Source: a virus. Taken from it: a stretch of 38,828 nt of DNA. Made by a program: the position numbers and the translations under genes. Where the stretch lies: IMG/VR virus record IMGVR_UViG_3300013285_000031, positions 1 to 38,828 of that record. One strand, 5' to 3'. Of the stretch, positions 3 through 38,828 are shown piece after piece; position 1 is the first letter of the stretch; each line of letters starts with the position of its first letter. The notes below the pieces were generated by a model. That model worked only from the letters and a program-made list of their open reading frames with translations, searched no databases and was not told the origin of the DNA.

Positions 3-428
3 GTGACTGCGGTTTCTAAAGCCCTTGGAATTGATGAGGCAGACGTTACAAAAACCATCGAATCTAATAAGCTATCTGCGGAACAAATCACTCAACTTAA
101 ACTAGCAGAACTGGAACTTCAAAAACAAGCGCAAGCAATAGGTCTTAATTTTGAAACACTTGCAGTAGAGGATCGCAAGTCTGCCAGAGATATGCAATCT
201 ACAACAAAATCTTGGGTTCCAGGTACATTGGCCATTGGAATCACCATTGGGTTTTTTGGAATACTATTTGCCTTAATGGTGGGGTACGCCACAAAATCAG
301 ATGAATTAATGATTATGCTTGGATCCTTAGGCACAGCCTGGACCGGCATCATTGGTTTTTACTTTGGTAGTTCTGCAGGTAGCCAACACAAGGATGACCT
401 ACTGTTTAAATCGAGCCCATCAAAATGA
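3..428 (+). CDS. Holin, GTA 3TM-like family (5' end probably cut by window edge)
   Basis: This is a holin that would form lesions in the inner membrane and release the endolysin encoded next. The first possible start in the window is GTG at position 3, but the reading frame is open to the window edge, so the true start may lie upstream. The N-terminal 65 residues are charged and helical and end in a SARDMQ motif typical of GTA-type phage holins. Two hydrophobic segments follow, at about residues 70-94 (W-V-P-G-T-L then GFFGILFALMVGYA) and 101-122, with a GlySer-rich turn and a charged C-terminus. The stop overlaps the endolysin start by 4 bp (ATGA), as expected of a lysis cassette. Family assignment is by motif recognition; whether it acts as a pinholin or a large-hole holin cannot be told. 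Confidence 0.8.
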   Translation: MTAVSKALGIDEADVTKTIESNKLSAEQITQLKLAELELQKQAQAIGLNFETLAVEDRKSARDMQSTTKSWVPGTLAIGITIGFFGILFALMVGYATKSDELMIMLGSLGTAWTGIIGFYFGSSAGSQHKDDLLFKSSPSK

Positions 429-2922: not shown

Positions 2923-3539
2923 GCGGAGCTTACCAACAAACATACGATAATTTAATCGCCGATGTAATTGCTTACATGGAGCGTACTGACGTAGACTTTA
3001 TCAATCAAATACCAAGCCTAATTGGTTTGGCAGAGTCTGCAATCGCTGCAGAGCTCAAGACGTACTTACAAATGACCGTGGTAGAGACAAGCCTTAGCGC
3101 CAATCAAACGGTCCTTCAGAAGCCTGCCAGATGGCGCAAAACAGTATCTATGAAGATCAATGGGCAACCAGTTCTTTTACGGTCTCAAGATTATGTATCA
3201 ATGTACCAATCTGAGTCTACTGCAGGAACTCCTCTGTATTATGCAGAGTATGACTACAACAATTGGGCCATAGCTCCGAAGGCGAGTGCATCCTTTCCAG
3301 TTGAGATTATTTACTATAGTCAAATTCAACCATTGGACACATCCAATCAACAAAATCTATTCACTAGAGAGTGCCCTCAGGCCATGTTGTTTGGAACACT
3401 GCTCCAAGCGCAGGGGTATTTAAAAGCAATCGAAAAGCTCCCAGTGTGGAAAGGATATTACACCGATGCCTTGGCCGCGTTGAAAAAAGAAGACAACTCT
3501 CGTCGAATCGACAGAAATACTACAATTCAGGAACCATAA
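2919..3539 (+). CDS. Head-to-tail adaptor protein (P22 gp4/SU10 adaptor-like)
   Basis: This is a probable adaptor ring protein linking the portal to the tail. It is 206 residues long. The N-terminal helical part (TYDNLIADVIAYMERTD, IPSLIGLAESAIAAEL) is followed by a beta region (PARWRKTVSMKI, PLYYAEYDYNNWAIAPK) and a C-terminal helix (GYYTDALAALKKED). This order is typical of the phage adaptor family found in SU10 and related podoviruses. The ATG overlaps the stop of the homing endonuclease remnant. The tail fibre gene follows 3 bp after its stop. Confidence 0.72.
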   Translation: MSGAYQQTYDNLIADVIAYMERTDVDFINQIPSLIGLAESAIAAELKTYLQMTVVETSLSANQTVLQKPARWRKTVSMKINGQPVLLRSQDYVSMYQSESTAGTPLYYAEYDYNNWAIAPKASASFPVEIIYYSQIQPLDTSNQQNLFTRECPQAMLFGTLLQAQGYLKAIEKLPVWKGYYTDALAALKKEDNSRRIDRNTTIQEP

Positions 3540-21925: not shown

Positions 21926-22447
21926 TTAAATAGCGAAGTCCGAAGCGGCAGAAGAACTACCACCCAAGCGATCACCATCTGTTAGTTTCTGTACGTTCTG
22001 TAAACCATACGCGATACCTTTTGAACCGCTTGTGTTGTATGGGTAAAGTGTCACTGAGACACGACCATAACAGCCTGAGTAAACTTCATTCGGGTCAATG
22101 ATCTCGTTCATGTCAGCGTCTACAACTCCTGGACGTTGACCTGAGCTTGCGTTAAAGAAGTATGAGTTAGCGTAAGCCTCGTCATCTTTCTCTTCATCGC
22201 CGTCACGTAAAGCACCTTTTAATAACTTAGGTACCGCACCACCAAAAATTGCCGCGTTAGCTGTAGCCACTTCTTTAAATGCATCGTTAAATTTCTTGAT
22301 TGTCTCGGTATCACTTTTTGGGATGATAACAGACACAGAGTACTTCTCTTTATCACTACCCATTGCGGCCACTGGTGTGAACAAGTGAGCGAATGAAAGA
22401 CGAACCTTACCGGTTACTAATTTAACTTTTGTTGAGGCAACTGCCAT
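21926..22447 (-). CDS. Single-stranded DNA-binding protein, DUF2815 (Enc34-like)
   Basis: This is a 173-residue OB-fold protein of the DUF2815 family, known in phage Enc34 as the single-stranded DNA-binding protein used in replication and recombination. Family features are the N-terminal KVKLVTGKVRLSFAHLF, KYSVSVIIPKSD, the segment AYANSYFFNASSGQRPGVVD, and VYSGCYGRVSVTLYPY followed by GIAYGLQNVQKL. The C-terminus is short and Ser-rich rather than strongly acidic. It is followed by a strong terminator and preceded by a hairpin leader. It is paired with the DUF2800 nuclease upstream, as in many phages. Confidence 0.9.
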   Translation of the reverse strand: MAVASTKVKLVTGKVRLSFAHLFTPVAAMGSDKEKYSVSVIIPKSDTETIKKFNDAFKEVATANAAIFGGAVPKLLKGALRDGDEEKDDEAYANSYFFNASSGQRPGVVDADMNEIIDPNEVYSGCYGRVSVTLYPYNTSGSKGIAYGLQNVQKLTDGDRLGGSSSAASDFAI

Positions 22448-22468
22448 AATATTTCCTTTTTAACGTCA

Positions 22469-22495
22469 GGGTAGGACTTCAATAGGGGCCTACCC
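22469..22495 (-). other. Hairpin in the leader of the single-strand binding gene
   Basis: A perfect 7-bp inverted repeat (GGGTAGG with CCTACCC, 13-nt loop) lies 21 nt before the start codon at 22447. No T-run follows on either strand, so it is not a classic terminator. It may be a leader structure or operator for autoregulation. Confidence 0.45.
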
Positions 22496-22540
22496 GTCAA
22501 CCCTTCACTACAATACCACACTAAATTTAAATATGCAAGA

Positions 22541-36673: not shown

Positions 36674-36709
36674 TTATTTACGTACCACAAAGCCTGTTTG
36701 ATCTTGTCG
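36674..36709. repeat. 36-bp direct repeat, copy 2
   Basis: This is the original copy, forming the last codons of the Gp88-family gene. Together with copy 1 it bounds a 480-bp segment. Confidence 0.9.
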
Positions 36710-37378
36710 AGCTTTGCCCTTGGCATACAAAGCCACCACCACACCTCTTGGCTCTGTGTGACGGATGTCGCTGTTGTCACCACCAATCACGTCAGTAAAC
36801 ATGAATGTCTTCGGTATGTTCTCTGCCTTGTCAAACACCACAGCAATGCGTGATAGTGCGCTATTGGCATTCGCTTTAGCTACCAATGGCGCAAAGCTTT
36901 TAACCCCGCTGTATGAGAATGTAAGGTCATAGTTTGCCGGTATGTTTTTGCGTGTCGGCAACTTGGTATAATCATAGAATGCTAGTGTTGGAAAATGCTC
37001 AAAAATGTTTAGTCCACCATAGTACACATTCTCATAGGCAATGTCTGACGTGCCGTTTAAGCGTACCAATGGTGTCAATCCCATGCGCTGTGCCTTGCGC
37101 TGTAATGCCTTGATTGACCACACTAGGTCATCCATGAATGCCTCGCGCTCCTCAAAGAAGCGCTTAGTCTTGGCAATACGTGCCTTTTGTACAGCAGACA
37201 TTGCTCCACGTCCGGCAGTATAGAGACAGGCTGTCTCACATCCTGCAAGCTTGGCAGACGGGCACACTTGGTATCCGCTAATGTCAGATGGTGACATATA
37301 CAGGATGCCTGTTAAGAAGCCGAGTTTAAGACCTTTGACAGTCTTGGCATCGGCATTGGATGATAGTAGGTTTTTCAT
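36674..37378 (-). CDS. Gp88-family phage protein
   Basis: This is a 234-residue protein of the phage Gp88 type (mycobacteriophage gene 88-like). The conserved pattern is visible: KTVKGLKLGFLTGILYMSPS, GYQVCPSAKLAGC, ETACLYTAGRGAM, then RIAKTKRFFEEREAFMDDLV and LVRLNGTSDIAYE. Cys39, Cys47 and Cys51 may form a metal or Fe-S site. The molecular function is not established. Its leader is the 3' product of hammerhead ribozyme 1. Its 3' end is duplicated at 36194. Confidence 0.85.
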   Translation of the reverse strand: MKNLLSSNADAKTVKGLKLGFLTGILYMSPSDISGYQVCPSAKLAGCETACLYTAGRGAMSAVQKARIAKTKRFFEEREAFMDDLVWSIKALQRKAQRMGLTPLVRLNGTSDIAYENVYYGGLNIFEHFPTLAFYDYTKLPTRKNIPANYDLTFSYSGVKSFAPLVAKANANSALSRIAVVFDKAENIPKTFMFTDVIGGDNSDIRHTEPRGVVVALYAKGKARQDQTGFVVRK

Positions 37379-37398
37379 ATTGTATCCTTGTTAGGTTT

Positions 37399-37450
37399 GT
37401 ATAAGACTGCCTCTCGGCAGTTTCGGCTCGTGAAGCCTCGTCAGTTATAC
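37399..37450 (-). ncRNA. Hammerhead ribozyme, type I, copy 1
   Basis: Read 5' to 3' on the minus strand, the elements are: stem I strand GUAUAA; core CUGACGA; stem II GGCU with loop UCACG and AGCC; core GAAA; stem III CUGCC with loop GAGA and GGCAG; then UC; and stem I strand UUAUAC. Every invariant core base is present, and the cleavage triplet is GUC. Cleavage is predicted between 37405 and 37404. The 5' stem I strand contains the stop codon TAA of the preceding gene. The 3' product forms the leader of the Gp88-family gene. Confidence 0.92.
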
Positions 37451-37693
37451 TGTGATTGTAACACCATCTACCTTAACACTTTTGATGGTGTCCTTGTTGA
37501 CTGCGCGGTATCCCTTGTCAGCCATGCTGTAGATAATGATGAAACTATCATCTAGTGTACGCTTGCCACCGGCTAAGTGCTTCTTAACATTTAGTAGTCC
37601 GTTAATGGTGCGCTCTGTGCCGTCTTTCTTCATAAATGTGATAGTCATAAATTTGTTGCTGTTTAGATCTATGAAACTTGAGATGTTTGACAT
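37445..37693 (-). CDS. Conserved small phage protein
   Basis: This is an 82-residue protein of unknown function, rich in beta strands (FMTITFMKKDGTERTINGLL, NVKKHLAGGKRTLDDSF, KGYRAVNKDTIKSV), a pattern common among phages and possibly SH3-like. It is driven by promoter P1. Its stop codon is part of hammerhead ribozyme 1. AAAAGGATACAAA precedes the ATG. Confidence 0.75.
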   Translation of the reverse strand: MSNISSFIDLNSNKFMTITFMKKDGTERTINGLLNVKKHLAGGKRTLDDSFIIIYSMADKGYRAVNKDTIKSVKVDGVTITV

Positions 37694-37715: not shown

Positions 37716-37753
37716 AGTCTTAATTATACAGGTCAATTTATGACCTGTGTAAA
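37716..37753 (-). promoter_or_regulatory. Sigma-70-type promoter P1 with spacer palindrome
   Basis: TTTACA (37748-37753) and a consensus TATAAT (37723-37728) are separated by 19 bp (18 if TTACAC is the -35). The spacer holds a perfect 8-bp inverted repeat ACAGGTCA with TGACCTGT (37728-37748), an operator candidate. The flanks match P2. It lies just after the stop of the 38028 gene and drives the 37693 gene. Confidence 0.78.
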
Positions 37754-37758
37754 TTATT

Positions 37759-38028
37759 TTAATCCTCGTCAATATAAGATAATTTATAATCAATCACAGT
37801 AAATTCTCCGTTTACTCCCCGAGTCATAAATGATTTTAGCTCGTCTTCACCCGTAGTAAAATAAAAAATATACTCGTCTGATATCCCCCAATGGTCGGCA
37901 ATGATGTCTCCATTATCGTCTAGTGTATCCTCGAGACCTTCACCAAAAGAAAAATATGCCATGTCCTTAATTTCTTTTGTGTCATCCCATTGAAAGCTTG
38001 CCCATGCACCAATTGCTTTTTTAGTCAT
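37759..38028 (-). CDS. Hypothetical acidic phage protein
   Basis: This is an 89-residue acidic protein (IKDMAYFSFGEGLEDTLDDN, GISDEYIFYFTTGEDELKSF) of unknown function. GGAGGTG, within the end of the preceding tiny gene, stands 6-8 nt before the ATG. Promoter P1 begins right after its stop. Confidence 0.68.
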   Translation of the reverse strand: MTKKAIGAWASFQWDDTKEIKDMAYFSFGEGLEDTLDDNGDIIADHWGISDEYIFYFTTGEDELKSFMTRGVNGEFTVIDYKLSYIDED

Positions 38029-38032
38029 GATA

Positions 38033-38170
38033 TTACACCTCCTCGTCGTCTGTTGTTGGGTATATCTCTATGCAAGTGTCGCTAGAGTATACATCATTGT
38101 CGATGCCCGAGCCTGATACGCTGTAGCTATACAGTTTCTCGGCTGTGTCGTTTAGTTTAATTGATGTCAT
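38033..38170 (-). CDS. Tiny acidic protein downstream of hammerhead ribozyme 2
   Basis: This is a 45-residue protein (MTSIKLNDTAEKLYSYSVSG, DNDVYSSDTCIEIYPTTDDE). GAGGATACAACAGC precedes the ATG. It is the first gene of the RNA released by cleavage of ribozyme 2. The function is unknown. Confidence 0.6.
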   Translation of the reverse strand: MTSIKLNDTAEKLYSYSVSGSGIDNDVYSSDTCIEIYPTTDDEEV

Positions 38171-38191: not shown

Positions 38192-38243
38192 GATTAAGAC
38201 TGCCTCTCGACAGTTTCGGCTCTTGAAGCCTCGTCAGTTAATC
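38192..38243 (-). ncRNA. Hammerhead ribozyme, type I, copy 2
   Basis: The elements on the minus strand are: stem I GAUUAA; core CUGACGA; stem II GGCU with loop UCAAG and AGCC; GAAA; stem III CUGUC with GAGA and GGCAG (one U-G wobble); UC; then UUAAUC. Against copy 1, two stem I base pairs change on both strands and pairing is kept, which is strong evidence for a selected RNA. Cleavage is predicted between 38198 and 38197. It starts directly after the TGA of the antirestriction gene. Confidence 0.92.
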
Positions 38244-38828
38244 TCATGCTACTTGTTGCAGTGTTGCATCCAGTGAGTTGATGTAGTCACTAGCTTTCTG
38301 TGCCAAGGCTGATGCCTTGAATACTGCCTTGTTATCAGCCTTTAGCATCCTCAGCCATGATGCGATGTAATTGGCATGTTGTAAGTTTCCGCTGATATGG
38401 TGGTCGGCACATAGGAATGCACTACCGAGCTCTGCTACTAGCTCCTCGAATGCGTAAGCCTCGTTACCAAAGCGCCCAGTCATATCGCGGTCTAGTCTAG
38501 CTTTAACTCCTGTCCAATGCGTCAGCTCATGGAATGCCGTAGCATAGTATGCGTCTGCCGTATTGAAACTGTCACGATGTGGCAATGTGATGCTGTCGGT
38601 AGATGGTGTGAATTGTGCGCTGTCCCCGCCATGGCGGATAATTGCACCTGTCATTGCCATGCGCGTCTCGCATAATGCGCTCGGCTCTACTGTCGGCATG
38701 CTGTCCAGTGCGGGAATTTCATAGTCCGTTTGGTCAGCATTAAACACGTTGAAACCTTTCATGATAGCGTAACCATTGGTCTCGGTCTCGCCCTGTGCAT
38801 TGGTCTTGGTGCTCGATACAGGCTTAAA
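38244..38828 (-). CDS. ArdC-type antirestriction protein, C-terminal zincin domain (5' end outside window)
   Basis: The frame is open to the right window edge. It reads FKPVSSTKTNAQGETETNGY before the first internal Met at 38762, so the gene continues outside and 194 residues are visible. The region is the C-terminal metallopeptidase domain of ArdC-like polyvalent proteins: NVFNADQTD, FHELTHWTGVKARLDRDMTG with HExxH, and NEAYAFEELVAELGSAFLC with the third ligand Glu. ArdC proteins protect incoming DNA against restriction. Its place at the start of the minus-strand early operon fits that role. Hammerhead ribozyme 2 follows its stop. Confidence 0.88.
   Translation of the reverse strand, partial: FKPVSSTKTNAQGETETNGYAIMKGFNVFNADQTDYEIPALDSMPTVEPSALCETRMAMTGAIIRHGGDSAQFTPSTDSITLPHRDSFNTADAYYATAFHELTHWTGVKARLDRDMTGRFGNEAYAFEELVAELGSAFLCADHHISGNLQHANYIASWLRMLKADNKAVFKASALAQKASDYINSLDATLQQVA

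Follow-up and report, generated by a model that had tools for sequence, protein, structure and literature searches.

The DNA of the virus record IMGVR_UViG_3300013285_000031, analysed here over its whole length of 38,828 nucleotides (the window), carries on its minus strand two type I hammerhead ribozymes, each located between two genes and built on the end of the upstream one. They belong to a phage family in which placement at a stop codon is the rule, and the two window hammerheads are probably intercistronic self-processing elements, RNA activity included.

Structure of the two hammerhead ribozymes

Ribozyme 1 extends from stem I to stem I at 37399-37450 (minus strand) and was recognized by sequence, descriptor scans, a covariance model and folding. 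Read from 37450 to 37399, it consists of GTATAA CTGACGA GGCT TCACG AGCC GAAA CTGCC GAGA GGCAG TC TTATAC; the complete type I hammerhead that the original prediction placed here is borne out, all of the invariant bases and the three stems being present in the sequence. Stem I (6 bp) pairs GTATAA (37450-37445) with TTATAC (37404-37399), stem II (4-5 bp) is formed by GGCT/AGCC inside 37437-37425, and stem III (37421-37406; 6 bp, counting A15.1-U16.1) ends in a GAGA tetraloop. The open helix is stem I, whereas stems II and III are closed by loops, which is the type I topology. The two parts of the catalytic core, C3-UGACG-A9 (37438-37444, minus strand) and GAAA (G12-A15.1; 37421-37424, minus strand), were identified by sequence and pattern scan. 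With U16.1 at T37406 and C17 at 37405, cleavage is predicted between 37405 and 37404, giving the same RNA end, 37404, as was originally expected. Also as predicted, the 5' strand of stem I (37445-37450, minus strand) is GTA TAA, the final two codons of the gene at 37445-37693, with Val at 37450-37448 and the stop at 37447-37445 (stop distance 0).

The pattern scan and the covariance model revealed a full second hammerhead, ribozyme 2, at 38192-38243 (minus strand), which was absent from the original prediction. From 38243 to 38192 it reads GATTAA CTGACGA GGCT TCAAG AGCC GAAA CTGTC GAGA GGCAG TC TTAATC, and its predicted cleavage site lies between 38198 and 38197. A TGA stop (38246-38244) abuts its stem I. 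The next two in-frame codons, GAT TAA, make up the 5' strand of that stem, so that tandem stops occupy 38238-38246 (minus strand). Both copies possess CUGANGA, GAAA, U16.1 and H17, with three helices of 6, 5 and 6 bp around the core, and the core pattern CTGANGAGN{6,16}CGAAAC matches the window twice, compared with 0.01 matches expected from shuffles. In the folding of 37390-37462, the hammerhead is the minimum-energy structure (z = -2.7). With longer flanks, stem I of ribozyme 1 is lost from the minimum-energy structure and an alternative pairing of its strands is slightly favoured, so folding energy alone is not decisive for this copy; the stability of the ribozyme 2 fold does not clearly exceed that of shuffles (z = -0.8).

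Covariance-model scores

The original prediction had pointed to the Rfam type I model as a check, and the outcome was divided. This model, RF00163 (gathering score 34 bits), matches neither copy in the window, but three sister copies (L172:2736-2787, L172:8079-8128 and L173:10313-10362) pass it at 36.2-36.7 bits; because they pass at the same cut-off, the miss in the window represents a limit of sensitivity, although formally it bears on one half of what the original prediction named as a refutation, the absence of a covariance-model hit. Rfam was therefore dropped as the decider, the type I model being too insensitive for these copies. When the window was compared with Rfam with E-values allowed, the best-scoring model in the correct register was that of the RAGATH-1 hammerhead (RF03152), at 37400-37467 with 22.5 bits (E = 0.17), far below its gathering score of 56.3 bits. 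A covariance model built here, R1, assigns 75.2 and 74.1 bits to the two window copies, scores that are not independent because both copies are among its 44 training sequences. Unlike these scores, the predicted stems, which were free to form or not, and their covariation in relatives are independent support. The only Rfam gathering match in the window is a DUF2815 RNA (RF03084) at 22445-22504 (minus strand, 71 bits), directly preceding a gene for an ssDNA-binding protein (PF10991; 21926-22447).

Relatives, covariation and copy number

Both ribozymes are also present in a close relative, L001, whose GP88 protein is 97% identical. Stem III of the L001 ribozymes is one pair shorter and still paired (CTGCGCGAGCAG and CTGCGAGAGCAG), and the core is intact. 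At L001:2970-3020, a 5'-truncated hammerhead, of which AGCCGAAACTGCGAGAGCAGTC, the 3' strand of stem I and the leader are left, precedes a 76-aa gene and looks like a dead or recombined copy.

The sample of relatives consists of metagenomic contigs with mechanically called ORFs, in which near relatives were thinned by 8-mer sharing and protein clusters, without a tree. IMG/VR was scanned with the pattern CTGANGAGN{6,16}CGAAACTGN{4,14}CAGTC, which fixes part of stem III and requires neither stem I nor stem II. At least 119 stretches were found, with at least 131 matches when the window and L001 are included. Among the matches listed, stem I reaches at least 4 bp and stem II at least 3 bp in 127 of 131, and 114 of 131 have a stem I of exactly 6 bp. 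In 44 diverse members, 98.7% of the pair cells are standard, compared with 71.5% in shuffled sets and about 33% when the partners are slid, and 185 cells have changed on both sides, compared with 51 in shuffled sets. The perfect score of stem I is partly a matter of choice, because these 44 members were picked with a stem I of at least 5 bp; the figure of 127/131 is unaffected. The family consensus is A-GNNNAA-CUGANGAG-N-UNAAU-N-CGAAACUG-N-GNRA-N-CAGUC-UUNNNC-AA, with a conserved UNAAU-like loop II, an A before stem I in 88% and AA after it in 87/85%. A contact between loop II and stem I, as needed for fast cleavage at low Mg2+, is suggested by these conserved flanks, the only pointer to it.

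The R1 search found 14 copies, all on one strand, in the 39.8-kb record IMGVR_UViG_3300042884_000166, 11 copies in an 18.8-kb record and seven in each of two other records. In the 14-copy phage, the hammerheads separate blocks of 1 to 8 genes. The pattern of the IMG/VR scan, applied to 257 Gb of bacterial and archaeal contigs, gave 33 matches, about the estimated chance level, and stems form in only a few of them; thus, the family is essentially viral, and a bacterial chromosomal origin was rejected. A hammerhead of a different sequence group (stem III 10 bp, stem I 5 bp) was seen at L009:5973 (plus strand), in a 347-kb jumbo phage contig.

Placement at stop and start codons

Ribozymes were picked by R1 on the RNA alone, and for each of them the longest ORF that includes the position 45 nt upstream of C3 was traced to its stop. 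In 116 of the 125 non-redundant ribozymes, the last base of the upstream stop lies between 14 nt inside and 10 nt before C3 (-14 to +10), compared with 7.5% for random positions on the same strands and contigs by the same procedure. Ordinary adjacent genes of the same contigs have a gap of 10 nt or less in 48% of cases, compared with the 93% of ribozymes that have a stop in this range. The offsets take discrete values. At offset 0, the 5' strand of stem I closes with UAA; at offset -4, U4-G5-A6, the UGA within CUGANGA, serves as the stop; at offset -14, it is in loop II; and at offsets 2 and 5-10, it is in or just before stem I. The frame in which neither stem I nor the core contains a stop is used by 18 of the 102 upstream-protein clusters, where 34 are expected (binomial p = 3e-4). 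UAA closing stem I is much rarer where it is unneeded, occurring in 4/13 cases of the same frame with an earlier stop and in 7/18 and 16/39 of the other frames. Stop-codon placement is thus a rule of the family, beyond a curiosity of the gene at 37445-37693.

The offset used by homologous upstream genes varies from phage to phage (5, 6, 9 and 10 in one cluster; 5, 0 and 6 in another), which indicates that ribozyme-gene junctions arose more than once. For comparison, five of seven type II hammerheads of bacterial genomes begin at or overlap the upstream stop codon, and because these copies also begin at stops, the conserved feature is that the ribozyme starts at the stop, not that the stop is in stem I. 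Matches to RF02276 and RF00163 in genomes related to Faecalicatena were used for comparison only. On the downstream side, most start codons come 23-34 nt after the cleavage site and are accompanied by a Shine-Dalgarno-like motif, which was required in the count.

Empty and filled sites in cultured pelagiphages

The Pelagibacter phages HTVC142P, Eistla EXVC025P, HTVC031P and HTVC168P (Autographiviridae, Pelagivirus) have one or two copies each, located among the early genes that precede the RNA polymerase gene. The end of HTVC031P gp03 (103 aa, ending INIK) is an empty site, ATCAAATAACA-AACAAACACAGGAG, whereas its orthologue in Eistla, which is 89% identical and of equal length with the same last residues, has the filled site ATCAAGTAACA-[CTGATGAG ... 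GTCTGTTACAATAACGTAACACAAAC]-AACAAACAAAGGA. In short, ATCAAATAACA/AACAAACA of HTVC031P corresponds to ATCAAGTAACA[ribozyme]AACAAACA of Eistla, and the gene end is unchanged. Likewise, the gp3-gp4 junction of HTVC142P contains a ribozyme, whereas the orthologous junction of HTVC168P is a plain TAATATG (71 and 70 aa). Since filled and empty orthologues keep their ends and nearly equal lengths, ribozymes have been gained or lost at gene ends without shortening of the gene, and at filled sites the gene's own stop codon becomes part of the predicted stem I. Truncation of genes by an inserted ribozyme was rejected in the tested cases, in which proteins align to their ends and orthologues lacking a ribozyme are equally long. 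Besides a type I copy at 2068-2157, HTVC031P (L169) has at 285-345 (plus strand) the element GCTGTC / TGACGTTGTCAACGTCA / CTGATGA / GACTTATTAAGTC / GAAACAGC, probably a type III hammerhead.

Genes adjoining the ribozymes in the window

All of the genes adjoining the two ribozymes are on the minus strand. Upstream of ribozyme 1, the gene at 37445-37693 encodes an 82-aa WYL_2-like (phrog_2267) small protein and is not truncated by the ribozyme, because the family match reaches residue 81/82. The downstream gene (36674-37378) encodes a 234-aa GP88-family protein (PF17338), and the mRNA left for it by the predicted cut would begin at 37404, its 26-nt leader containing AAGGA (37389-37385). A link of the hammerhead to the GP88 gene was ruled out, since the GP88 relatives L002-L008, L010 and L011 have no hammerhead. 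Ribozyme 2 follows the C-terminal region of an ArdC-like antirestriction protein (PF18818, phrog_7245; 38244-38762), whose open frame runs on beyond the end of the record, and precedes a small ORF of 45 aa read from the sequence (38033-38170); the ATG of this ORF is 27 nt past the cleavage site, with AGAGGA before it. ArdC-like homologues in three phages (window 38244-38762, L038 and L187) each directly precede a hammerhead, with stop offsets of 6, 5 and 0, and ardA adjoining prophage hammerheads has been noted earlier (PMC3088659).

A 12-pair palindrome, TTACACAGGTCA-taaat-TGACCTGTATAA, at 37723-37752 lies between the genes at 37759-38028 and 37445-37693. It is accompanied by a promoter-like TATAAT on the minus strand and is retained in L001 with changes in arm and loop; a promoter/operator or a terminator is possible. 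Similar DNA around the window could not be found in named phages. For both the 36674-37378 protein (58.6% identity) and the 37445-37693 protein (42.7%), the closest relatives in named phages include Limnohabitans phage DC31, hinting at a freshwater betaproteobacterial host.

Proposed function and alternative explanations

The minus-strand operon would be transcribed as a polycistronic RNA, and each type I hammerhead would cut it in cis between two genes. The upstream message would keep its own stop and have as its 3' tail two stable hairpins, stems II and III, with a 2',3'-cyclic phosphate at the end. The downstream message would carry a 5'-OH and a 26-27-nt leader with a Shine-Dalgarno sequence and start codon. 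The ribozyme is built on the end of the upstream gene, which would spare the coding sequence, with the stop in stem I (37445-37447) or abutting it (38244-38246); in other phages, the stop is the catalytic UGA itself or lies within loop II. Structure, covariation, recurrence, the geometry of stops and starts, and gain and loss at orthologous sites are direct observations, and we infer that the RNA is cleaved in infected cells and that the products would be working messages. Earlier work (PMC3088659) showed that tandem prophage hammerheads cleave a polycistronic RNA of ~2 kb both in vitro and in E. coli, and already proposed that hammerheads process long phage transcripts. Message processing is the best explanation because the geometry keeps both messages translatable and there is this published precedent of polycistronic cleavage.

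That the window copies are a chance resemblance or dead relics is extremely improbable: their Rfam score is sub-threshold, but the core is intact in both copies and in L001, the changes in stem III keep the pairing, and two core-pattern matches are seen where chance would supply 0.01. We also find it improbable that the near-identical units of ribozyme and leader serve as homologous joints at which cassettes of early genes are swapped, self-cleavage being of secondary importance. In L001, ribozyme 2 and its leader are retained (91% over 80 nt) next to a different upstream gene, and this relative has a third, 5'-truncated copy with the same leader (about 2970-3010), and presence or absence at orthologous Pelagivirus sites would fit such swaps as well; however, strong compensatory change keeps all stems despite divergence, which a pure joint would not need. 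The tight packing of the genes could reflect genome compaction alone, the ribozyme being the 5' leader of the downstream gene and overlapping the upstream stop by loss of spare sequence, with no link to translation, and we regard the chances of this as evenly balanced. Abutting or overlapping ends are also seen in half of the ordinary gene pairs on these contigs, start codons are also close past the cleavage site, and the ribozyme contains stops (UAA, UGA), so most frames entering it end there. Ribozyme junctions are, however, tighter than those of ordinary genes (93% versus 48%), the upstream-protein clusters show a frame bias, and the upstream proteins are full length and so have not decayed into the ribozyme.

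Gating by translation, a form of the coupling to the stop codon suggested in the original prediction, would be an extra claim on top of intercistronic processing: ribosomes terminating upstream would hold stem I and the core open, so that heavy translation would protect the RNA and poor translation would release cleavage. A ribosome whose A site holds a stop codon extends over about twelve nucleotides downstream of it, which takes in the 5' stem I strand and, in most cases, the core, so a competition between termination and folding is physically expected. In nearly all members, the stop is positioned such that a ribosome terminating there would sit over stem I and over some or all of the core, and the frame needing a ribosome to reach loop II is under-used. 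However, type II hammerheads, whose 5' strand is different, abut stops too, and the offsets differ between homologous upstream genes, so that no single offset is conserved. Gating of this kind, though plausible, seems rather unlikely, and we are equally doubtful that termination-coupled cleavage, occurring only in ribosome-free intervals, would matter physiologically.

Comparison with known systems

The hammerhead class, its occurrence in phages and the idea of processing are already known. The kinship with known phage hammerheads stated in the original prediction holds, since core and topology are the same as in the prophage representatives of RF00163 (Perreault et al. 2011, PMC3088659), several copies of which flank single genes in (pro)phage operons. 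Unlike those, the window copies score below the Rfam cut-off, and in the family described here stem I is nearly always exactly 6 bp with conserved A/AA flanks; up to 14 copies per phage record occur here, compared with the tandem arrays, e.g., a triple arrangement, tested in PMC3088659. Type II hammerheads (RF02276) likewise begin at an upstream stop (5/7) but are circularly permuted, with stem II as the open stem. The RNase III sites of the phage T7 early transcript cut polycistronic RNA between genes and leave hairpin 3' ends. Their working is similar, but hammerheads are protein-free, leave a 2',3'-cyclic phosphate and a 5'-OH, and are unrelated in sequence. The theta ribozymes of gut phages (PMC10879173) are another self-cleaving class, with an HDV-like fold and a link to stop codons via suppressor tRNAs, whereas the hammerheads here are linked to gene ends.

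The words 'stop codon' do not occur in the main text of PMC3088659, and the open-licence papers searched yielded no mention of stop codons embedded in phage hammerheads, which does not prove that such a mention is absent elsewhere. The stop-codon rule, including the catalytic UGA as a stop, appears to be new in that we could not find a prior description in these papers; nor did they yield one of 11-14 copies per phage record or of hammerheads with empty and filled sites in cultured pelagiphages.

Implications

A review (PMC6155905) counts the role of hammerheads in prokaryotes among the open questions of the field. A cut that preserves the stop upstream and the leader and start codon downstream points to message processing, and the question is testable in the cultured phages HTVC142P, Eistla EXVC025P, HTVC031P and HTVC168P, which offer filled and empty versions of the same site. 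Control of ribozyme folding by translation termination is a further specific possibility that would be cheap to test. Tentatively, and with the odds leaning against it, these ribozymes may represent a widespread type of phage mRNA element that is stop codon and self-cleaving ribozyme at once, in some phages with the catalytic U4-G5-A6 as the stop; termination and processing would then compete for the shared nucleotides, and ribosome traffic on the upstream gene would set the extent to which the operon is cut.
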